Shown here: positions 11,562-29,680 of the stretch, one piece after another | Numbering within the stretch: position 1 is the stretch's first letter | How the letters are laid out: every line of letters starts with the position of its first letter | NCBI GenBank assembly: GCA_904384205.1 | Contig: CAJFJY010000004.1 | Location: 1 to 35,395 of the forward strand | Source of the DNA: an uncultured Clostridia bacterium | GTDB lineage: Bacteria > Bacillota > Clostridia > TANB77 > CAG-508 | Reading direction: 5' to 3' | Length of the DNA stretch: 35,395 nt | The notes under the pieces: model-generated | The model's database searches: none | Seen by the model: the letters and a program-made list of their open reading frames with translations, nothing else | Told to the model about the DNA's origin: nothing | Program-made: the position numbers and the translations under genes

Positions 11562-11590
11562 ATGGCAGATAATTTAGTCTGCCAATTTTT
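11562..11590 (+). terminator. Rho-independent terminator after the DUF1292 gene
   Basis: TGGCAGA and TCTGCCA form a 7-bp stem with an 8-base loop, followed by a T-run. Confidence 0.85.
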
Positions 11591-11735
11591 TAAATTATAG
11601 GAAATGTAATTTCCTATAATTTAAAAAATACAGTTGCACACAAATTTTACTAATGTAAAATTTGGCGCATGAACAATTACGCGGGCTTTAAAATGTTATA
11701 AACAGATAAAATGTTCAAAAAAGCCCGCTATTGTT
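11590..11735. repeat. Family IV structured element, copy 1
   Basis: Three hairpins in order: AAATTATAGGAAAT/ATTTCCTATAATTT, then AAATTTTAC/GTAAAATTT after TTGCACAC, then GAACAAT..GCGGGCTTT/AAAGCCCGC..ATTGTTC. The element at 26892 has the same order, with similar first and second hairpins and a different but again self-complementary third. It lies between a terminator and the next gene. Confidence 0.65.
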
Positions 11736-19784: not shown

Positions 19785-19988
19785 AAAAATAGCAGTTTAA
19801 TACAATTAAATATGAATTTGCTCGAGAAGATAATAATTTATTAATTTTTCCGTCTCCCCATTCTAAAAATTCTAACAAAAGTTTTTCAAACTTTTGAGAA
19901 TTTTTGAACGGTCCCCACAAGTCCCTCCAAAATTAATAAATTATTATCTTCCCGAGCTAAAAAACAGTGTATTAACTGTTATTTTTTT
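19785..19988. repeat. Family III nested inverted-repeat element, copy 1 (3' of natB)
   Basis: Outer arms AAAATAGCAGTTTAATAC (19785-19803) and GTATTAACTGTTATTTTTTT (19969-19988) look like a terminator with a T-run whose loop is expanded. Inner arms of 29 bases (19820-19847 and 19929-19957) pair almost perfectly, starting GCTCGAGAAGATAATAATTT. The centre holds TCTAACAAAAGTTTTTC and GAACGGTCCCCACAA. The central 55 bases are the reverse complement of those at 29552-29610. Confidence 0.8.
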
Positions 19989-19989
19989 C

Positions 19990-20018
19990 TTGAAAAAATT
20001 CGTAAAAAATAGTAATAT
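19990..20018 (+). promoter_or_regulatory. Possible promoter of the DUF3006 gene
   Basis: TTGAAA at 19990-19995, a 17-base spacer and TAATAT at 20013-20018. An overlapping TATAAT at 20016 would need a 20-base spacer. Confidence 0.4.
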
Positions 20019-20092
20019 AATTATATATTTTAAAATTCTATTATTTAATAATAATTCTCTTTAAGCTAGGAAAGTAGGAAGGAGGAGAATTA

Positions 20093-20452
20093 ATGGACAT
20101 ATTGCAAAACTTAGGTGAAGCGATAAAAGAAACATTAGAAGATATAAAAAATGACAAACTAGAGAAAAAAGATTTACCAAAAAATTCTAATATAAGTAGT
20201 GAAGAATTAGAATTAGCGCAAAAACTTGATGCAGTTCAAGAATACACATTAGACAGATATGAAGGAAATATAGCTGTTCTGGAAAATAGAAAAACAGGAA
20301 AGATGGAAAATGTTGATAAAAGTAAATTACCGAATAATCTAGAAGAAGGTAGTATTTTAAAATGCATCAATGGAAAATATATTTTTGATAGAGCAAAAAC
20401 AGAAGAAATTTCTAAAAAAATTCAGCAAAAAACAAATGATTTGTGGAAATAG
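20093..20452 (+). CDS. DUF3006 domain protein
   Basis: The 119-residue protein has a charged helical head (residues 1-48) and then the DUF3006 pattern: YTLDRYEGNIAVLENRKTGK, KLPNNLEEGSILKCINGKYI and a C-terminal helix ISKKIQQKTNDLWK. DUF3006 domains are small beta-barrels often encoded beside or fused to ComEC-like metallo-hydrolases, and the next gene is exactly that. Function is unknown. The ribosome binding site AAGGAGGAG precedes ATG 20093. The N-terminal extension is longer than in minimal members. Confidence 0.85.
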   Translation: MDILQNLGEAIKETLEDIKNDKLEKKDLPKNSNISSEELELAQKLDAVQEYTLDRYEGNIAVLENRKTGKMENVDKSKLPNNLEEGSILKCINGKYIFDRAKTEEISKKIQQKTNDLWK

Positions 20453-20543
20453 AAAAAAGTGTAGTAATTTACATCTATATTGATAATAAGTGAAATTATA
20501 TATTTTGGTAATTTTAATAAAGTAATGTAAGGGGCAAAAGAAA

Positions 20544-21503
20544 ATGGGAAGAAGAGGAAAGAGAAGTACAAAAAGACAAAATAGAAAAATTATAGGATTA
20601 ATTTTAGCATTAGTTGTTATAGTTTTAATAGCTATTGGAGCAAATCCAAATGTTATAAATACAATAAGTGAAATAGCAGGACTTAATATAACAGTTAATG
20701 AAAAACAGACACAAAATAGTACAGAAAACCAAATAGGAAATCAAAATACTCAAGTTCCAGCAGGTGAAAATCTAGTTGTAGATTATATAGATGTAGGACA
20801 AGCTGATAGTATTTTAATTACAACTCAAGATGAAGCAATGCTAATTGATGCGGGAAATAATGAAGATGGAGAAGATGTAGTAGAATTTATAAAATCAAAA
20901 GGAATTACTAAATTAAATTATGTAATAGGAACACATCCTCATGAAGATCACATAGGAGGAATGGATGATGTTATAAAAAATTTTGATATAGGTACAATAT
21001 ATATGCCTACAATTACTACTAATACAAAAACATATGAAGATGTGATAACAGAAATAGAAAATAAAAATCTTCAAATTTCAGAATCCAAAAAAGGAGATAC
21101 ATTTTTACTTGGTAATGCAAATTGCGAATTTATGACAGATAGTATATTAGATAAAAATAATTTAAATTTATCATCAATTATAACTAGAATAACATTCGGA
21201 AATACAAGCTTTTTATTTATGGGAGATGCAGAGACAGAAAATGAAGAAACTAGAGCATGGCCAAAAACAGATGTATTAAAAGTTGGACATCATGGCTCAG
21301 ATACAAGTTCTTCAGAAGAATTTTTAAAGCAAATCTCTCCTAAAATTGCAGTAATTTCGGTAGGAAAAGATAATGACTATGGACATCCAAGTGATGAAAC
21401 TATAAAAAAGCTACAGAATTTAGGAGCTACAATTTATAGAACAGATGAACTAGGTACAATAGAACTTGTTTCAAATGGAAATAATATTACAAAAAAGAAT
21501 TAA
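20544..21503 (+). CDS. ComEC/Rec2-like metallo-beta-lactamase-fold hydrolase, exported
   Basis: The 319-residue protein has a very basic head (GRRGKRSTKRQNRK) and a transmembrane helix (IIGLILALVVIVLIAIGA, about 16-33), so the hydrolase domain is extracytoplasmic. The domain from about residue 77 has VDYIDVGQADSILI, the metal-binding THPHEDHIGG (130-139), FLFMGDAE, VGHHGSDTSSS and SVGKDNDYGHPS. This is the set found in the C-terminal domain of ComEC and in stand-alone extracellular MBL proteins. A nuclease or phosphoesterase role is inferred from the family. It follows the DUF3006 gene after 91 bases, and the two are probably one unit. ATG follows AAGGGGC. Confidence 0.92.
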   Translation: MGRRGKRSTKRQNRKIIGLILALVVIVLIAIGANPNVINTISEIAGLNITVNEKQTQNSTENQIGNQNTQVPAGENLVVDYIDVGQADSILITTQDEAMLIDAGNNEDGEDVVEFIKSKGITKLNYVIGTHPHEDHIGGMDDVIKNFDIGTIYMPTITTNTKTYEDVITEIENKNLQISESKKGDTFLLGNANCEFMTDSILDKNNLNLSSIITRITFGNTSFLFMGDAETENEETRAWPKTDVLKVGHHGSDTSSSEEFLKQISPKIAVISVGKDNDYGHPSDETIKKLQNLGATIYRTDELGTIELVSNGNNITKKN

Positions 21504-21943
21504 TTATAAATTTTTTTAAGGAAATTTGAACAAGAAAAAAGAGGTTCTGTCTTTAAAAAAAACTTAAAAAGTAGGAAAAATCGAATAAATAAAGCAAAAA
21601 GAAGAAAAAGCGAGAAAAAATGTTAAAATGTCTATAAATTGAATTTGAATTATGTTAGTAATTATGATATTTTGCTAACATAATTTTTATTTTAAATTCA
21701 AGACTAATTAAAATCTAAAATTTAAATTCGAACTAAAATTCAATATAAAGGTAATATAAAAAATGAGATATGAATATTTAATGTTAAATATTTAAATTGT
21801 TATTTAAATCCAATATATTTCATAATTTTAGAAGAAACACATAAAAGATTTATGTCAAGTATTTTAAATTCAAATAAATTTTAATTCTAATTATTCAGGA
21901 TTTTATAGTAAAAATTAAATAAAATAAACAGGAGGCAGTGCAT
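21504..21943 (+). other. 440-base AT-rich intergenic region with one long hairpin
   Basis: No gene is visible. A long imperfect inverted repeat at 21639-21702 (TTGAATTTgaATTATGTTAG with CTAACATAAT...AAATTCAA) could be a terminator-like hairpin though no T-run follows. The remainder is low-complexity AT sequence with repeated TTTAAATT words. The end carries the AGGAGG site of the next gene. Confidence 0.6.
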
Positions 21944-22879
21944 ATGCAAAATAAAGTAGAAACAAAAAATAATACTAAAGAAGGAAAGGAAGAAAAGAAA
22001 CTATTATCACCAAAACTTGATGTTGTATTTCAAGCATTATTTGGAGAAGTAGGAAATGAAAGAATCACAAAAGAATTTTTAGAAGCAATATTGGAAAGAA
22101 AAATAGAGGAGGTGGATTTAAGCGGAAATATAGTTTTAAGAAGAGAGAATATAAACGATAAAATGGGAGTTTTAGATGTACTTGCAAAAATAAATAATAA
22201 TGAATATGTAAATATAGAAATGCAAGTAGCAGACAAAGATAATCTACTAGAAAGAATATTGTATTATTGGGCACGAGTATATACAAGGAATATAAAGAAA
22301 AGTGAAGATTACATAGAGTTGAAAAAGACAATAGAAATATTAATAGTAGATTTTGAAATAAAGCAGTTAAAAGAATTAGAATATCATAGTAAATGGAAGA
22401 TAATAGAAGAAAAAGATAGAAAACTAATATTGACAGATGATTTAGAAATACATATAATAGAAATAAATAAAATAAAGAATCTAACAGAAAAAGAGAAGAA
22501 CAAAGAACTAGTCAAGTGGATATATTTCTTAGAAGAACCAGAAGGGGAAAGGGTGAAAGAATATATGAAAAGAGATAGTGGAATAAGAGAGGCGAAAGGA
22601 AAGCTAGAGACAATGAGTGAAGATGAAAGAATGCAAATATTAGCAGATTTAAGATTAAAAGCGATAATGGACGAAAAAGCAATAAAAAGATTAGGCTATA
22701 AAGAAGGATTAGAATCTGGAATTAAAGATGGAATAAAACAAGGAATAAAACAAGGAATAAAACAAGGTGAAAATAAAAAAGTAACAGAAATCGCAAAGAA
22801 AATGAAAGAAAAAGGAGCAGATATCAACTATATAGAAGAAATAACAGGATTAACAACAAAAGAAATAGAAAAATTATAA
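21944..22879 (+). CDS. Rpn family recombination-promoting nuclease / PD-(D/E)XK putative transposase
   Basis: The 311-residue product matches the Rpn/PDDEXK_2 group: SPKLDVVFQALFGE at the start, then GVLDVLAKINNNEYVNIEMQ, which supplies the catalytic Asp and ExQ of the PD-(D/E)XK core, and LLERILYYWARVYTRNI. In E. coli, Rpn proteins are DNA endonucleases that raise RecA-independent recombination; they were once annotated as transposases. The C-terminus has an in-frame run of GIKDGIKQGIKQGIKQG (22720-22770), a feature common in this family's tail. ATG 21944 is chosen over GTG 21938 by spacing from AGGAGG. A terminator follows. Confidence 0.9.
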   Translation: MQNKVETKNNTKEGKEEKKLLSPKLDVVFQALFGEVGNERITKEFLEAILERKIEEVDLSGNIVLRRENINDKMGVLDVLAKINNNEYVNIEMQVADKDNLLERILYYWARVYTRNIKKSEDYIELKKTIEILIVDFEIKQLKELEYHSKWKIIEEKDRKLILTDDLEIHIIEINKIKNLTEKEKNKELVKWIYFLEEPEGERVKEYMKRDSGIREAKGKLETMSEDERMQILADLRLKAIMDEKAIKRLGYKEGLESGIKDGIKQGIKQGIKQGENKKVTEIAKKMKEKGADINYIEEITGLTTKEIEKL

Positions 22880-22940
22880 TTAATAAAATCTGAATTTTAA
22901 TGAAAAAAAGATATGTTATTCAATATTTGAATAAAAAACT

Positions 22941-22966
22941 AATAGCAAGTAACCCTTGCTATTTTT
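22941..22966 (+). terminator. Rho-independent terminator after the Rpn gene
   Basis: AATAGCAAG and CTTGCTATT form the stem with a short loop, followed by T residues. The der promoter -35 lies in its 3' arm. Confidence 0.75.
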
Positions 22967-22984
22967 AAGTATATGTAGTAGAAT
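22956..22984 (+). promoter_or_regulatory. Probable promoter of der
   Basis: TTGCTA at 22956-22961, a 17-base spacer and TAGAAT at 22979-22984. The same -35 hexamer is used at 6222. Confidence 0.6.
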
Positions 22985-23045
22985 AGCAATATAGAAAAAG
23001 AGAAATTAGGGCTAATAGATAAAAACATAGTGGAAAGGAGAAGCA

Positions 23046-24374
23046 ATGTCAAAACCAATAGTAGCGATAATAGGAAAACCAAATGTAGGAAAATCAACAT
23101 TTTTTAATTATCTAGTTGGAAGCAGAGTATCAATAGTTGAAGATACACCAGGAGTAACAAGAGACAGAATATATGCAGACTCAAACTGGAGAGGAAGAAA
23201 CTTTACTTTAATTGATACAGGTGGAATAGAACCAGAATCTGATGATATCATATTAAAACAAATGAGAGAGCAAGCAAATTTAGCTATAAATATGGCTGAT
23301 GTAATAATATTTTTAACAGATTTAAAACAAGGAGTTACAGCAGCAGACAGGGAAATAGCATTAATGCTTAAAAAATCTGGAAAGCCAATTGTTTTAGTAT
23401 GTAACAAAGCTGACAATTATGAAAGAGATAAAAATGATGTATATGAATTTTATAATTTAGGATTAGGAGAGCCAATGCCAATATCTGCAGCGAATGCAAT
23501 AGGTATAGGCGACGTATTAGATGCAATTTATGAAAAATTTCCACCAAAAGAAAATGACGAAGATGAAGATGATATAATAAAAGTAGCAGTAATAGGAAAG
23601 CCAAATGTAGGAAAATCATCATTAATAAATAAAATATTAGGAGAAAAAAGAACAATAGTAAGTGATATTGCAGGAACAACTAGAGACGCAATTGATACAT
23701 ATTTTGAAAATGATGAAGGAAAATATGTATTAATAGATACAGCAGGAATAAGAAAGAAAAACAAAGTAAATGAAAGAATAGAAAAATTTAGTGTAATGAG
23801 AAGTTTGCTCGCAATAGAAAGAGCAGATGTATGTTTAATGTTAATAGATGCAAATGATGGAGTTACAGACCAAGATGCAAAAATAGCAGGAGAAGCACAT
23901 GAAGCAGGAAAAGGAATTATAATAGTTGTAAATAAATGGGATGAATATGAAAAAACAACAGGAACATTAGAAAATTATAAAAAGGAAATATATCAAAAAT
24001 TATCATATTTATCATATGCGCCAATAATATTTATATCAGCAAAAACAGGGCAAAGAGTAGATAAATTATTTGGAATGATAAATGAAGTTGCAAAACAAAA
24101 TGCAATGAGAATTAATACATCTGTCCTAAATCAAGTTATAAATGAAGCAATAGCAATAGTTCAACCACCAACAGATAAGGGTAAAAGATTAAAAATATTA
24201 TATGGTACACAAGTAAGTACAAAACCACCAACATTTGTAATATTTGTAAATTCCAAAGATTTATTTCATTTCTCATATGAAAGATATTTGGTAAATCAAA
24301 TTAGAAAAGAATTTGGATTAGAAGGAACGCCAATAAGAATAATAGCAAGGGAAAAACTAGACAAAGATAGTTAA
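23046..24374 (+). CDS. der: Ribosome biogenesis GTPase Der (EngA)
   Basis: The 442-residue protein has two tandem GTPase domains: GKPNVGKSTFFN with DTPGVTRDR, DTGG and NKAD, then GKPNVGKSSLIN with DIAGTTRDA, DTAG and NKWD, and a C-terminal KH-like domain (residues about 350-442). Der is an essential 50S assembly GTPase. Length is typical. The ribosome binding site AAAGGAG precedes ATG 23046. plsY starts 75 bases after the stop and gpsA follows, a gene order common in Clostridia. Confidence 0.97.
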   Translation: MSKPIVAIIGKPNVGKSTFFNYLVGSRVSIVEDTPGVTRDRIYADSNWRGRNFTLIDTGGIEPESDDIILKQMREQANLAINMADVIIFLTDLKQGVTAADREIALMLKKSGKPIVLVCNKADNYERDKNDVYEFYNLGLGEPMPISAANAIGIGDVLDAIYEKFPPKENDEDEDDIIKVAVIGKPNVGKSSLINKILGEKRTIVSDIAGTTRDAIDTYFENDEGKYVLIDTAGIRKKNKVNERIEKFSVMRSLLAIERADVCLMLIDANDGVTDQDAKIAGEAHEAGKGIIIVVNKWDEYEKTTGTLENYKKEIYQKLSYLSYAPIIFISAKTGQRVDKLFGMINEVAKQNAMRINTSVLNQVINEAIAIVQPPTDKGKRLKILYGTQVSTKPPTFVIFVNSKDLFHFSYERYLVNQIRKEFGLEGTPIRIIAREKLDKDS

Positions 24375-24449
24375 AGGGTTTAAACTAATTTGAGTATTAA
24401 GAAATATTTAAATTTAAGAGTAATTAAAAATTTAAAAGGAGGAATTATT

Positions 24450-25079
24450 ATGGTTATATATGTAGTAATGGCAATAATAGCATACTTAATAGGAAGTGTA
24501 AATTTTTCTGTGATATTTAGCAAAAAATTTGCTGGATTTGATGTAAGAGAAAAAGGAAGCGGAAATGCAGGAACAACAAATATGCTTCGTTCAGTTGGAA
24601 AAGGACCTGCAGCGTTAACTTTAATATGTGATATTTTAAAAGGAGTAGTATCTATATTACTAGCAATAGCAATTGGTAGCATATTTAAAAACACAGATAG
24701 AGCATTATTAGTACAAGTTGCAGCAATAGCAGTAGTTATAGGACATACTTTCCCAATATTCTTTAAATTCAAAGGTGGAAAAGGTGTTGCAACATCTTTG
24801 GGAGTTTTACTACTAACAAATTGGCAAATAGGATTAATATGTTTAGTGTTTGGATTATTATTAATAATTTTAACAAGAATGGTATCTTTGGGTTCATGTG
24901 CAGCAGCTGTATTATATCCAGTTCTAACTTTATTTATAAACCAACATTATATAGTAACAGGAAATAGTAGTTATTTTATATATAGTATAATATTAGCTGT
25001 TATAGTATTATTTAACCACAGAGAAAATATAAAAAGGATAATGCAAGGAAAAGAAAACAGAATATCTTTTAACAAATAG
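24450..25079 (+). CDS. plsY: Acyl-phosphate:glycerol-3-phosphate acyltransferase PlsY
   Basis: The 209-residue integral membrane enzyme has the three PlsY motifs: GSGNAGTTNMLR (about 36-47), FKGGKGVATSLG (about 108-119) and HRENIKRI near the C-terminus. Five hydrophobic helices are visible. It makes lysophosphatidic acid from acyl-phosphate and glycerol-3-phosphate, and the next gene makes that glycerol-3-phosphate. ATG 24450 follows AAAAGGAGG; the frame begins earlier at 24390 but without a site. Confidence 0.96.
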   Translation: MVIYVVMAIIAYLIGSVNFSVIFSKKFAGFDVREKGSGNAGTTNMLRSVGKGPAALTLICDILKGVVSILLAIAIGSIFKNTDRALLVQVAAIAVVIGHTFPIFFKFKGGKGVATSLGVLLLTNWQIGLICLVFGLLLIILTRMVSLGSCAAAVLYPVLTLFINQHYIVTGNSSYFIYSIILAVIVLFNHRENIKRIMQGKENRISFNK

Positions 25080-25145
25080 CTAATAAATATGAGATAAAAA
25101 ATCAATATAAACTGTAAAAAACAAAGGAAGGAATGATTAAAAAGC

Positions 25146-26132
25146 ATGAAAAATATAGCAATAATAGGCAGTGGAAGTTGGGGAGTTGCACTTGCAACAC
25201 ATTTAGCAAAATTAGGAAATAATATAAAGATATGGTCTTTTGCTGAAGAAGAAAAAAATATAATTAATAACGAAAAAGGATGCAAATTTTTACCAAACCT
25301 AAAATTACCAGAAAACATATATTGTTTTTTAGACTTTAAAGAAGTAATAGAAGGAGCAGATTTTATATTACATGTAACACCATCCAAATTCACAAGAAGT
25401 ATATTTAAACAATATAAAGAATATGTTGGAAATAAACCAATAATAATATGCTCAAAAGGATTTGAAAAAGAAAGTTTAAAAACATTAGATGAAGTAATAT
25501 TAGATGAAATGCCAAATGCAAGAATAGGAGTATTATCGGGACCAAGTCATGCAGAAGAAGTATCAATAGCAATACCAACAGTTTTAGTAATCGCTTCAAG
25601 AGACGAAGAAATAAAAAAAGAAGTGCAAAATGTATTAATGTGTAAAAATATGAGAATATATACATCAAATGATATAAAAGGAGTAGAACTTGGCGGAGCA
25701 TTAAAAAATATAATAGCATTTTGTGCAGGAGTAGCAGCAGGAATAGGCTTAGGTGATAACACATTTGCAGCTCTAATTACAAGAGGATTAAGCGAATTGT
25801 CAAGATTAGGAGTAGCATTAGGAGGAGAAAAAGAAACATTTTATGGCTTAAGCGGATTAGGAGATTTAATTGTAACATGCTTAAGTGAACATAGTAGAAA
25901 CAGAAGAGCAGGAAAATTAATAGGACAAGGATATACATTAGATGAAGCAAGAGAAAAAGTTGGAATGGTAATAGAAAGTATAGATAACATAGATGTAGCA
26001 TATGAATTGGGGAAAAAGAACAATATAGAAATTCCAATAATAGAAACAGCATATAATGTAATATATAATAAATTAGACCCAAAAACAGCAGTTCAAAATT
26101 TAATGACAAGAGAAAAGAAAGATGAAATTTAA
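25146..26132 (+). CDS. gpsA: Glycerol-3-phosphate dehydrogenase [NAD(P)+]
   Basis: The 328-residue protein has the Rossmann start IIGSGSWGVALATHLA, the substrate-loop VLSGPSHAEEV, the catalytic Lys in ELGGALKNIIAFCAG, and LSGLGDLIVTC with a following RNRRAG. It reduces dihydroxyacetone phosphate to supply PlsY. Start ATG 25146 follows GGAAGGA. No terminator is obvious between it and the next gene; a TATAAT at 26221 may start a separate transcript. Confidence 0.97.
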   Translation: MKNIAIIGSGSWGVALATHLAKLGNNIKIWSFAEEEKNIINNEKGCKFLPNLKLPENIYCFLDFKEVIEGADFILHVTPSKFTRSIFKQYKEYVGNKPIIICSKGFEKESLKTLDEVILDEMPNARIGVLSGPSHAEEVSIAIPTVLVIASRDEEIKKEVQNVLMCKNMRIYTSNDIKGVELGGALKNIIAFCAGVAAGIGLGDNTFAALITRGLSELSRLGVALGGEKETFYGLSGLGDLIVTCLSEHSRNRRAGKLIGQGYTLDEAREKVGMVIESIDNIDVAYELGKKNNIEIPIIETAYNVIYNKLDPKTAVQNLMTREKKDEI

Positions 26133-26263
26133 AACGAATTTAATTTCAAAAAATATAAATATAAATAAAAAATGCGAAAAACATAAAAAAATGAATAATA
26201 CAAAAAATAAAAAACAATAATATAATATATAGTAGAAAAAAGAAAAAGAAAGGAAGAAAAAAT

Positions 26264-26854
26264 ATGGAATTTTTTGATAAATTAGGAAAAAAAGCATCTG
26301 AAGCATATAAAGTTACTGCTGATAAAACTGGAAAATTAGCTAAAGAAGCTAAAATAAGAATGAAAATAAATGAAATGAAAGGACAAATAAAAGATATATA
26401 TGAGGAAATAGGAAAAAAAGTATATGAAAAACATGTAAGAGAAGAAAATATAGATATAAGCAAAGATTTAGAAGATGAATGTACAAGAATAGATGTATTA
26501 ACAGGAGAAATAGAAGATAGATTAAATGAATGTTTAGAATTGAGAGATAAAAAGAAATGTCAAAAATGTTTTAAAGAAATAGACAAAAATATGAAATTTT
26601 GCCCAGAATGTGGAGCAAAACAAGACGATGAGCCAGCAAAGGAAGTAGAAGTATTAGAAAAATTAGAAAATGCAGACATATGTGAAAATAAAAAAGAAGA
26701 AGCCGAAGAAGTAAAAGAAGATTTAAAAGAAAAAATTGAAGAAAAAGAAGAATCTACTCAAAGTAGTAATAATGATGAAAATGGAGATGAAAAATCAACA
26801 TTAGAAAAGACAGTAGAAGTAGAATCACATGTAGAAGCAGACGAAGAAGATTAA
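26264..26854 (+). CDS. Zinc-ribbon protein with coiled-coil head and acidic tail
   Basis: The 196-residue protein starts MEFFDKLGKKASEAYK, continues with a helical, likely coiled-coil region (about 20-90), a zinc ribbon CQKCFKEIDKNMKFCPECG (about 99-117), and a very Glu-rich disordered tail containing KEEAEEVKEDLKEKIEEKEE. It has no signal peptide. Similar short zinc-ribbon proteins are widespread in gut Clostridia, without known function. The Glu/Asp-rich tail makes it strongly acidic. The start follows AAAGGAAG. A terminator follows directly. Confidence 0.85.
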   Translation: MEFFDKLGKKASEAYKVTADKTGKLAKEAKIRMKINEMKGQIKDIYEEIGKKVYEKHVREENIDISKDLEDECTRIDVLTGEIEDRLNECLELRDKKKCQKCFKEIDKNMKFCPECGAKQDDEPAKEVEVLEKLENADICENKKEEAEEVKEDLKEKIEEKEESTQSSNNDENGDEKSTLEKTVEVESHVEADEED

Positions 26855-26859
26855 ATAAA

Positions 26860-26895
26860 AATTGCCAAAAGGGACGGGGCTTTTTGGCAATTTTA
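26860..26895 (+). terminator. Rho-independent terminator
   Basis: AATTGCCAAAA pairs with TTTTTGGCAATT across a GC-rich loop, followed by TT. Its 3' end runs into the family IV element. Confidence 0.8.
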
Positions 26896-27059
26896 ACATT
26901 ATAGAAAATTACATTTCCTATAATGTTAAAAAATATATGCACAGAAAAATTGCTTAGCAATTTTTCGCGTCGACAAATCTTATACGCTTTTTGCTAGACC
27001 TTGAATTAATTTAGTAAATATTAAATCGTAGCGAAAGGTCTAGCAAAGCTAGATTTGCC
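26892..27059. repeat. Family IV structured element, copy 2
   Basis: Order of hairpins: AACATTATAGAAAAT/ATTTCCTATAATGTT, then AAAAATTGC/GCAATTTTT after ATGCACAG, then a nested pair AAATCT..GCTAGACCTT/AAGGTCTAGC..AGATTT. This parallels 11590-11735, including the GCACA and GCG words beside hairpin two. It ends 15 bases before the dtd start. Confidence 0.65.
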
Positions 27060-27073
27060 AGAAAGGAATAAAA

Positions 27074-27511
27074 ATGAAATTAGTTGTACAAAGAGTTAAA
27101 GAAGCATCTGTAAAAGTAAATGAAGAAACCGTGGGCGAAATAGGAAAAGGATACATGGTTTTATTAGGAGTAACACACAATGATACTAAAGAGACTGCAG
27201 ACTACCTAGTAAAAAAATTATGTAATTTAAGAGTATTTGAAGATGAAAATGGAAAAATGAATTTTAATATAAAACAAGTAAATGGAAAGCTACTAATAGT
27301 ATCTCAATTCACATTATATGGTAATTGCAAAGATGGAAATAGGCCATCTTTTATAGAAGCAGCAAAACCAGAATATGCAAATGAACTATATGAATATTTT
27401 TGTGAGAAATGTAAAGAAAATGACATAGAAGTCCAAAAAGGAATATTTGGAGCACATATGGAAGTAAGTTTAATAAATGATGGACCAGTAACAATAATGT
27501 TAGAAAAGTAA
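27074..27511 (+). CDS. dtd: D-aminoacyl-tRNA deacylase
   Basis: The 145-residue protein matches DTD along its length: MKLVVQRVKEASVKV at the start, LLGVTHNDT, the SQFTLYG motif and the C-terminal INDGPVTIMLE with the cross-subunit Gly-Pro motif. It removes D-amino acids (and glycine from tRNA-Ala) mischarged to tRNA. The start follows AGAAAGGAA. Its stop codon is immediately followed by the outer arm of a family III element. Confidence 0.97.
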   Translation: MKLVVQRVKEASVKVNEETVGEIGKGYMVLLGVTHNDTKETADYLVKKLCNLRVFEDENGKMNFNIKQVNGKLLIVSQFTLYGNCKDGNRPSFIEAAKPEYANELYEYFCEKCKENDIEVQKGIFGAHMEVSLINDGPVTIMLEK

Positions 27512-27728
27512 AATTTTGGAAATTATCCTAAAATCCATTATTTTTAGTTGCCCGCTCCCAGAGGTATATATATAAAATATTTATTCGTTTTTCCCCAATG
27601 GTACTGTAAGGATTAAAAATCCTAACAGTGCTCATCGGTCCCCACAAAAAACTCATTTATATTTTATATATATACCTCTTCGCGCTGACATAATTTATAT
27701 ATGGATTTTAGGATAATTTCCAAAATTT
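27511..27728. repeat. Family III nested inverted-repeat element, copy 2 (between convergent genes)
   Basis: Outer arms 27511-27538 and 27701-27728 are perfect 28-base complements (AAATTTTGGAAATTATCC...). Inner arms 27560-27583 and 27655-27680 pair through GAGGTATATATATAAAAT. The centre holds a third hairpin GGATT/AATCC and CGGTCCCCACAA as in copy 1. The element fills the whole gap between two stop codons. The outer hairpin probably serves as a bidirectional terminator. Confidence 0.85.
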
Positions 27729-27731
27729 TAC

Positions 27732-28010
27732 TTAGTAAGGATATCTTTCATAAATGTATTTTATAATCATATCTGCATTATTTTCTGTTACATTAATATA
27801 TATGTTTTTGTCTAAGCACACCCACATAGTAAAAAAATAATCATCAGAATTATCAATAAAAGTACCTATAATTTCAGCTATTTCAATAGGATTTTGATAT
27901 ATATGACTCCACTTAAACTTATCATCCAAATCAATTCTAGTATTATAAAATTTACTTAAAAATCTTTCTATTTCTCCAGATTTTGTGCTCGTAATATTAA
28001 CAGTTGCCAT
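27732..28010 (-). CDS. Conserved hypothetical small protein (92 aa)
   Basis: The product starts MATVNITSTKSGEIERFLSK and has KWSHIYQNPIEIAEIIGTFI, NSDDYFFTMWVCLDKNIYIN and a helical end DMIIKYIYERYPY. It has no signal peptide or membrane helix and looks like a compact alpha/beta protein. I do not recognise a named family. ATG 28010 follows AGGAG at good spacing on the minus strand. It converges on dtd and is divergent from the next gene, with an AT-rich 105-base promoter region between them. Confidence 0.75.
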   Translation of the reverse strand: MATVNITSTKSGEIERFLSKFYNTRIDLDDKFKWSHIYQNPIEIAEIIGTFIDNSDDYFFTMWVCLDKNIYINVTENNADMIIKYIYERYPY

Positions 28011-28115
28011 TTGTATAAACTCCTATAATATTATTATAAAAAAAATAATAAATTTTATACATATAAAAACTGAAAAATGAACATACTACAAAAAATAGTA
28101 TTGGAGGTTTTTATA

Positions 28116-29096
28116 TTGAAAAAAACTAGTAAAATTTGGTATATAATTTTAATCATTATAGGAGTTTTTATAATAGGATTTGGGATTTATTATACTGTTG
28201 CTAAAAGTAAAGATAAAAATACAGAAGAGCAAGATCTAAATGCAAAAGTTTCATCAGAGTTAGAATATATTGAAGAAAAATTTGTTAACTTATTTAATAA
28301 AATGAATAATATAGAATACGAAAACTACAAAATTACAGTAAAAGATGTTGAAAAATCAGAAAGTAATGATAAAGAAAGTGGAGCCACAACAACAGGAGAA
28401 GAAAAGAGCGGAAACACATCAAGTAGTGATTTACAAAGTAGTGGAGGATCACAAGGAGGAGATTCACAAGGAGGAAACTCTGAAGGAAGCAATAGTTCTC
28501 AAGGCGAAAGTTCATCAGAACAAGCAGCTGATAATCAAATGTATGAGTTACAAGCAATTGGAGTATTAACACAAGATAGTCAAATTGATTGGGAAAAAAC
28601 AAAAACAGAAGTAGAAAATATATATGTATCAATACCTACAATTACATTAGATTTATATCAAACAAATGTAAATCAACAAGATATATTAGATTTTAATTCA
28701 AAATTTGATAATTTAACGGTAGCCATAAAAAATGAAAACAAGCAAGAAACTCTTCAAAACCTAATTGAAGTATACAAATATATGCCAACTTTTGCAGAAG
28801 CGGTTTCACAAAATAGCAATATTAAGAAAACAGCACTAGATACAAAATTAAATATTTTTCAAGGATATAGTAAATTAGATTCAGGAGATTGGACAACAAT
28901 ATCAAATGATATACAAACAGGAATACAAACATTTGCTAAACTACTAACAGATGCTCAAATAGAAGAACAAAAACAATACACTATTAATAAAATATATGTT
29001 ATGATTAATGAATTAAAAAGTGCATCTGAAAAAAAGGATGTAGAAATTTTTTTGATAAAATACAAAAATCTTATAGAAGAATTGAATAATGTGTGA
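28116..29096 (+). CDS. Membrane-anchored hypothetical protein with Ser/Gly-rich linker
   Basis: The TTG at 28116 follows TTGGAGG with 8-base spacing; the longer frame from 28077 lacks a site. The 326-residue product has an N-terminal helix (IWYIILIIIGVFIIGFGIYY, about 6-25), a short helical stretch, a low-complexity Ser/Gly/Gln linker (about 95-148, with SGGSQGGDSQGGNSEGS) and a C-terminal helical domain of about 175 residues rich in Gln/Asn/Lys. The layout suggests an extracytoplasmic helical domain tethered to the membrane. No family is recognised. The rnpB promoter overlaps the stop codon. Confidence 0.8.
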   Translation: MKKTSKIWYIILIIIGVFIIGFGIYYTVAKSKDKNTEEQDLNAKVSSELEYIEEKFVNLFNKMNNIEYENYKITVKDVEKSESNDKESGATTTGEEKSGNTSSSDLQSSGGSQGGDSQGGNSEGSNSSQGESSSEQAADNQMYELQAIGVLTQDSQIDWEKTKTEVENIYVSIPTITLDLYQTNVNQQDILDFNSKFDNLTVAIKNENKQETLQNLIEVYKYMPTFAEAVSQNSNIKKTALDTKLNIFQGYSKLDSGDWTTISNDIQTGIQTFAKLLTDAQIEEQKQYTINKIYVMINELKSASEKKDVEIFLIKYKNLIEELNNV

Positions 29097-29102
29097 TATA
29101 AT
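29097..29102 (+). promoter_or_regulatory. -10 element of the rnpB promoter
   Basis: TATAAT immediately follows the stop of the upstream gene and lies 6-7 bases before the RNase P RNA. The -35 region at about 29074 is weak. Confidence 0.55.
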
Positions 29103-29108
29103 GGAAAA

Positions 29109-29456
29109 AGAGTAAATTGAATAGTCGCTGGTAAATTTCGAAAGGAATTACGAGAGGAAAGTCCGGGCTCCATAGAGCAAAGATGCTAGATAACGTCTAG
29201 TGGGGGCGACCCTAAGGAAAGTGCAACAGAAAATAACCGCCTTTGTAAAAAGGTAAGGGTGAAAAGGTGAGGTAAGAGCTCACCGCTGTTATGGTGACAT
29301 AACAGGTCAATGTAAACCCCATCTGGAGCAACACCTAAATAGAAGATTAAGCCTGCTCGGCGCCTTCTTACTTGTGTGGCTTGAGGTAATTAGTAATAAT
29401 TATCCTAGATAAATGGCTATTTTAAAAGACAGAACCCGGCTTACAGATTTACTCTT
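29109..29456 (+). ncRNA. rnpB: RNase P RNA
   Basis: The 5' and 3' ends pair (AAGAGTAAAT with ATTTACTCTT, helix P1). The conserved core words are present: GAGGAAAGTCCGGGCTC near 29153, AACGTCTAGTGGGGGCGACC-type P3/P4 sequence, GGTGAGGTAAGAGCTCACCG in the middle, and AGACAGAACCCGGCTTACAG near the 3' end. The roughly 350-base length fits a bacterial RNase P RNA. It is the catalytic subunit that removes tRNA 5' leaders. The left arm of a family III element begins in the last bases of P1. Confidence 0.95.
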
Positions 29457-29680
29457 TTAATTTATTGATGTAATTCAATATTATTGAAATTTTAATTGCG
29501 CGAGAATGTAATAATTTATTAATTCTGGAAAGCGGTAGGGACCGTTCAAAAATTCTCAAAAGTTTGAAAAACTTTTGTTAGAATTTTTAGAATAGGGGAA
29601 CTGGAAGAATTAATAAATTATTACATTCGTGAGCATAAACACTTTATGATGGACTGAATTGCATCAATAAATTAAAAGAG
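29452..29680. repeat. Family III nested inverted-repeat element, copy 3 (3' of rnpB)
   Basis: Outer arms 29452-29477 and 29655-29680 are 26-base complements with one G-T wobble (CTCTTTTAATTTATTGATG...). Inner arms 29498-29526 and 29606-29634 pair, with AGAATGTAATAATTTATT. The centre carries GGGACCGTTC and a long hairpin that is the inverse of copy 1's. Confidence 0.85.

Follow-up and report, generated by a model that had tools for sequence, protein, structure and literature searches.

The window analysed here is a 35,395-nt contig (CAJFJY010000004.1, positions 1 to 35,395) of the 1.49-Mb draft genome of an uncultured Clostridia bacterium (assembly GCA_904384205.1; hereafter G000), and it contains three long nested hairpins, designated copies 1 (19785-19990), 2 (27506-27733) and 3 (29452-29680). 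We consider, with a probability of about two in three, that the three hairpins are members of a dispersed palindromic repeat family, likely a miniature inverted-repeat transposable element (MITE), in which the stem arms are probably rewritten by template switching during replication, a process by which the outer stem would also grow into the neighbouring DNA.

The nested hairpins are real and lie where a preliminary description, made from the letters of the window, had placed them. Compared with 100 dinucleotide shuffles each, copy 1 folds at −60.2 kcal/mol (z −11.3, best shuffle −30.2), copy 2 at −92.7 kcal/mol (z −14.4, best shuffle −43.3) and copy 3 at −85.0 kcal/mol (z −12.6, best shuffle −46.5). 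The nested plan that the description had recognized at all three places is thus present, with z from −11 to −14, as are the central words it had claimed for the copies. Repeats matching copies 1 and 3 are referred to as family A and those matching copy 2 as family B. The stem sequences of the two families differ and short motifs (AGCGCGA / GGGAGCG and GTGGG.ACCG / TGGGGA) are common to them. Read in one orientation the order is AGCGCGA, inner stem (∼23 bp), GTGGG.ACCG, core hairpin, TGGGGA, inner stem, GGGAGCG, spacer and outer stem; exceptions, such as copy 1, occur, and in the genome G043 the core is variable as well. Selection likely maintains the junction motifs, perhaps as a binding site. 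The family units are ∼140 nt and the nested elements ∼190-230 bp overall, and no open reading frame (ORF) of ≥70 amino acids spans any of the 26 G000 copies.

Copy 3, used as a query, returned 45 BLAST matches at 25 or more places in G000, which is a lower bound because scoring covered 40 of the 78 candidates; two of the places lie at contig ends and may represent the halves of one element. Copy 2 returned five full family B places. These data agree with the earlier view of the hairpins as dispersed, inserted, nested elements. The pattern AGCGCGAN{106,134}GGGAGC, which captures the AGCGCGA..GGGAGC pair, was present in 7 of 156 genomes of the genus (43 matches in G043 and nine in G000), while the backward pattern gave no match in those seven and one match in each of two others. 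Phage and plasmid collections contained no match to one G043 element, and viral contigs none to the core pattern. Viral contigs did match a looser motif pair, where the best complementary run among 80 listed loci was 8 nt, and these matches were taken as chance; in the 57 copies bearing both junction motifs the median run is 22 and the minimum 5. Copy 3 is not in this set of 57, as its right junction falls outside the pattern, and the 80-nt alignment used there did not capture the outer stem of copy 1. No Rfam family for the element emerged at either threshold, gathering score or E≤5; weak microRNA-type matches to one locus, L024, were below the gathering scores. Related plans were also seen. 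The element L138 of G043, beside rnpB, has the same junction motifs around a shorter, different core (unit ∼95 nt), and other nested long palindromes (L109 in G060, L099 in G058, L117 in G069 and L070, C38 of G000) display the same plan with other motifs, their core being built around GATGTTCR...TGAAAGRGGC; these sit 3′ of dtd in relatives and near a G000 contig end.

A subset of family A, together with some other elements, displays inverted ends like GTTACAGTTCAGTAC. The 22 end pairs found (alternatives counted) correspond to 18 distinct elements, in some of which the interior is different or deleted, and nine of the 25 family A places of G000 are listed among them, three in degenerate or shortened form. 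Flanking 8-mers were at least 7/8 identical in nine of the 22 end pairs (five were exact at 8 bp and none at 9-11 bp), compared with 1 of 462 mispaired controls. Such 8-bp target-site duplications (TSDs) fit a transposase with 8-bp staggering, and the family is likely a small, transposase-moved (MITE-type) element. Terminal inverted repeats, direct duplications of constant length (8 bp) and the lack of coding capacity, all features of MITEs, were each observed, the first two on a subset. Two further loci, L122 (1250-1481) and L245 (816-877), have other interiors between terminal repeats of a similar type (GTTACAG/GTTCCAG), with target duplications at 7/8, and are possible leads to an autonomous partner.

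Stem arms that change together

G000 has no close relative among the genomes compared (best ∼82% over aligned parts), and empty sites and orthologous elements were therefore taken from G131, G022, G077 and G043. The first three are 89-96% identical at the compared flanks and have several insertions in common. The preliminary description had stated that the inner stems remain complementary as they diverge, and this was borne out by 27 units (26 distinct) from these four genomes, comprising 23 pairs and 598 cells; the seven other listed units, of different stem or core length, family B and the G000 family A copies were outside the count. Pairing was retained in 97.8% of the cells, with 13 unpaired. 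Eleven pairs had changed on both sides, giving 65 two-sided and only three one-sided cells, compared with 15.2 two-sided cells after shuffling; none of 500 shuffles reached 65. Whole-pair swaps, such as GC to UA, were abundant and G-U intermediates few. RNAalifold returned no pairs from a mixed alignment of families A and B, because the stems are misaligned between the families.

Orthologous elements of G131 and G022, compared by hand, display eight differences common to both arms and six confined to one arm. At L209 the outer arms read CAATCGCTTGAAATTATGATAATTT in G131 and CAATCA(C/T)TTAAATTTATTGT(G/A)ATGATTT in G022; the two arms share four substitutions and one 3-nt indel, and two further mismatches lie inside the stem of each species. 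The outer stem of L206 contributes one two-arm change and the inner stem of L093 two, and the two genomes have identical inner stems at L191 and L209. At such divergence a single pair should seldom be hit twice independently. The paired indels and the whole-pair swaps with few G-U intermediates suggest that one arm was copied from the other, rather than altered by slow compensation. The core was also seen, by eye, in opposite orientations relative to its flanks in G131 and G022 at three of five sites (L093/L258, L209/L259 and L095/L031), and in the same orientation at L191/L261 and L206/L255.

Template switching between inverted repeats is described as homogenizing arms and inverting the spacer (PMC8604942), and as able to create and mend stems (PMC8794818). 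The same change in both arms and core inversion at three of five sites, the latter scored by eye in draft assemblies, are the hallmarks of a template-switch hotspot, and we infer that the process acts in this family. In the proposed mechanism a DDE transposase acting in trans would move the element, and the long palindrome would stall replication. The nascent strand would then fold back onto its own arm, so that the arms are homogenized; the same fold-back could copy the flank outward, lengthening the outer stem, and could invert the core. The outer stem would consequently be partly an old transposon end and partly copied flank.

It could be argued that the element is a structured RNA in which selection keeps the stems paired and the changes are ordinary compensatory mutations. 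The conserved motifs outside the stems and the 11 covarying pairs are what such an RNA would display. The interpretation is nevertheless improbable, as the 40 copies located between codirectional genes show no strand preference with respect to those genes (17 same, 23 opposite), the cores flip, no element has an Rfam match above the gathering score, and an identical 3-nt indel occurs in both arms within one species pair. In addition, one-sided changes occupy only 3 of 598 cells in stems where whole-pair swaps (GC to UA) are abundant.

Outer stems and insertion sites

The five family B copies have interiors that are 92.5-97.8% identical, and their outer arms, compared between copies, are 0.50-0.68 identical (0.49-0.63 when shuffled). 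In a fixed window the arms of each copy matched each other at 0.97, 0.91, 0.82, 0.76 and 0.68. The outer stems align over 33, 34, 18, 22 and 27 positions with 0, 3, 1, 1 and 1 mismatches, respectively; for the fourth copy (22 positions) the values refer to the best-matching block within a longer but weak alignment. By comparison, ordinary hairpins, of which 14 were found in 127 kb of G000, reach at most 21 bp. Near-identical interiors combined with unlike outer arms show that the outer stems are largely site-specific.

The preliminary description had attributed such stems to insertion into the loops of existing terminator hairpins, the outer stem being the old terminator, and had proposed the orthologous 3′ regions of natB, dtd and rnpB as the place to look for that stem as a normal terminator. 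No 12-mer shared with the outer stem was found at 24 rnpB, 29 dtd or 29 natB orthologues, although simple terminator-like hairpins occur at nine, seven and seven of them, respectively. For rnpB, 24 of 29 relatives' loci were parsed; visual inspection of the other five showed no such stem in four, and the fifth is cut off by the end of its contig. The dtd orthologue of G043 bears its own family A copy. Fifteen G043 sites were also queried for orthologous stretches and eight were used. Those dropped were L138 (flanks >1 kb apart), L195, L213, L216, L217 and L226 (one or both flanks unmatched) and L104, where G022, the one relative inspected, has a different palindrome. The eight sites gave 19 stretches from G131, G022 and G077, in which the longest exact run with the 23-66-nt arms was 12. 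None of the 15 stretches at the six sites whose outer stem exceeds the control contained that stem, three of these stretches (L221) being not empty but occupied by the remnant of an element; the remaining four, at L220 and L189, lie outside the 15 as the outer-stem scores there are below the control. The absence of the outer stems from the same sites in relatives indicates that they are likely not older transcription terminators.

Other observations bearing on the terminator proposal point both ways. The outer stem of copy 1 ends in a T-run. At two G043 sites a relative has, by eye, a hairpin at the insertion point: at L219 G043 lacks the right half of the relative's terminator, and at L225 the point falls within a 7-bp hairpin of the relative, so a weak preference for loops is possible. 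IS1272 is described as targeting stem-loops, though it replaces them (PMC5678879). Simple ORF calls placed 40 of the 57 copies between codirectional genes, six between convergent and 11 between divergent genes; among the 26 copies of G000 the numbers were 20, three and two, with one at a contig end and none inside an ORF of ≥70 amino acids. The location at gene 3′ ends claimed in the preliminary description therefore holds as a bias, with 30 of the 40 codirectional copies nearer the 3′ end, but not as a rule, given the 11 copies between divergent genes, which also count against entry into terminators. Furthermore, a native terminator survives intact beside the element at L189 (scan) and, by eye, at L223 and L227, which the scan did not flag, and at L200 (below) each flank carries a complete terminator instead of one arm. 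Insertion into terminator loops is thus largely refuted, and we regard it as very improbable. At the site corresponding to L223, G077, G022 and G131 (L279, L280 and L281) contain ordinary hairpins whose stems differ among these three close relatives yet are largely paired; simple hairpins may also change their arms together.

The L200 locus illustrates how neighbouring DNA could enter a stem. In G077 a single terminator, TTGCCAAGGAGG-TTTT-CCTTTTTGGCAA, lies between the genes. In G131 the element is flanked by two complete copies of that terminator in inverted orientation. G019 contains one simple, unrelated hairpin at this locus, and G022 another hairpin without a family A core. The doubled terminator is the outcome that outward fold-back extension would give. 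It also fits a model in which insertion itself produces an inverted target duplication, the outer stem being created at once, at integration, as do the five family B copies, whose interiors are nearly identical and whose outer arms are unrelated from copy to copy. Direct 8-bp duplications, however, flank the family A elements that have intact ends, and orthologous outer stems change after insertion, making this model distinctly unlikely. A broader version, in which the target flank is written a second time, inverted, on the other side of the element during integration or the first round of replication that follows, each insertion making its own long outer stem, is a tentative alternative to which we give limited credence. 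If true, the inverted flank writing takes in gene 3′ ends and whole terminators, and would be a new route to long palindromes and doubled, bidirectional terminators. Hairpins like TTGCCAA...TTTTTGGCAA occur beside nested elements in four genomes (L025, L056, L200 and L219), and are perhaps a repeat family of their own.

Several points weigh against a mobile palindrome rewritten by template switching. All of the genomes are draft metagenome-assembled genomes, in which long palindromes are prone to misassembly, the core flips most of all. Clear flank copying was seen at L200 only; the similar L025 locus in G010 comes without an empty-site comparison, and the resemblance of the L200 hairpin to those at L025, L056 and L219 makes two insertions of one repeat conceivable. 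Only 29 of the 57 copies have an outer-stem alignment that scores above the 95% point of the mispaired controls (119), and the highest control (71.1) is above most of these, because the controls include related copies. In one family B copy, C30, the arms are no more alike, in the fixed window, than the best between-copy pair. In the inner stems, further pair types (18 compared with 15.6 shuffled; 51 of 500 shuffles reach this) are not beyond the shuffles, which themselves do not keep relatedness. No terminal repeat was recognized in family B (copy 2 by a shuffling test, the other copies by eye), and stem extension from such an end is therefore only assumed there. The remaining 13 of the 22 end pairs lack a target duplication. 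IS1595 and IS256 are families with 8-bp TSDs. Their domains were the transposase domains searched (PF12762 and PF00872; other transposase families were not searched), and neither matched in any of eight genomes; a transposase with the family ends was not found among them, so the MITE label is provisional.

The three copies of the window

Copy 1, a family A element with reversed core, has an outer stem of 19 pairs with one bulge, formed by arms at 19785-19804 and 19968-19986, the right arm leading into the T-run at 19981-19987 that the preliminary description had noted. The inner stem comprises a left arm with junction GCTCGAGA (19820-19848) and a right arm with junction TCCCGAGC (19929-19958), and encloses a core on the minus strand (19849-19928; the plus strand reads CGGTCCCC). 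In copy 2, the family B element, the left outer arm (27506-27538) begins with the last codon and stop of dtd, and the right arm (27701-27733) overlaps a convergent ORF (27732-28010) by 2 nt. Its junction GCTCCC and left inner arm occupy 27554-27592, the right inner arm and junction TCGCGCT 27647-27686, and the core hairpin, bearing CGGTCCCCACAA, 27593-27646 on the minus strand. Copy 3, from family A, starts inside the 3′ end of rnpB (29109-29459), with outer arms at 29452-29477 and 29655-29680. Junction GCGCGAGA and the left inner arm lie at 29498-29526, the right inner arm and junction CGTGAGC at 29606-29635, and the plus-strand core, GGGACCGTTC...GAATAGGGGA, at 29527-29605. Copies 1 and 3 have a 72-nt block in common (92%), in opposite orientations.

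The copies directly follow genes, as had been described, the neighbours being an ABC-2 permease (labelled natB in the description), the D-Tyr-tRNA deacylase gene dtd and rnpB, respectively. Outer stem lengths of 19, 28 and 26 bp had been given; the first and last stand, and that of copy 2 is 33 bp, complementary at 33 of 33 positions. The claim that the outer stems are unrelated fits copy 2, whose arms show no likeness to the family end (GTTACAGTTCAGTAC plus spacer; shuffling p 0.54 and 0.63), but not so plainly copies 1 and 3, whose left arms resemble it (p 0.006 and 0.01); the right arms of these two copies gave no significant likeness (p 0.84 and 0.09). The window also contains two related AT-rich palindromic hairpins, at 11585-11629 and 26891-26931, with stems of 21 and ∼19 bp and 3-nt loops.

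Relation to known systems

If the proposed reading is correct, covariation in the stems of a dispersed bacterial repeat is no proof of a functional RNA, since arm copying, with no selection at work, yields perfect covariation, paired indels and swaps of whole pairs. Each genome would then offer dozens of natural replicates, such as the 43 motif matches in G043, whose insertion sites are known and in which template switching, the growth of stems and the inversion of cores can be followed, and the family would suggest an origin for long perfect palindromes and doubled terminators in AT-rich Clostridia. No paper on such an element, and no report of template switching on a dispersed mobile palindrome, was found in searches of the open-licence literature.

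The family resembles bacterial MITEs in being short, non-coding, intergenic and present in many copies, and in displaying, on a subset, terminal inverted repeats and direct 8-bp target duplications. It differs in its nested stems around conserved motifs, its flipping core and its outer stems that become site-specific, and no autonomous partner was found with PF12762 and PF00872 in the eight genomes, the families searched. Repetitive extragenic palindromic (REP) elements, which are associated with RAYT transposases, are likewise dispersed extragenic palindromes, but are 20-40 bp, in contrast to the nested ∼190-230-bp elements described here.

Like this family, IS1272 (IS1182 family) involves stem-loop DNA at the target, and its target sequences are mutually unrelated (PMC5678879). 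IS1272, however, eliminates the stem-loop that it targets, has a transposase gene of its own and leaves no TSD, whereas here the terminator is doubled (L200) or left beside the element (L189) and TSDs occur on a subset; these observations do not fit stem-loop replacement of the IS1272 type. The closest parallels in process are with template-switch (quasipalindrome) mutation, which shares arm homogenization, stem creation or mending, and spacer inversion with the family (PMC8794818 and PMC8604942). The difference lies in the substrate: here it is likely a mobile, dispersed palindrome of which many natural replicates exist.

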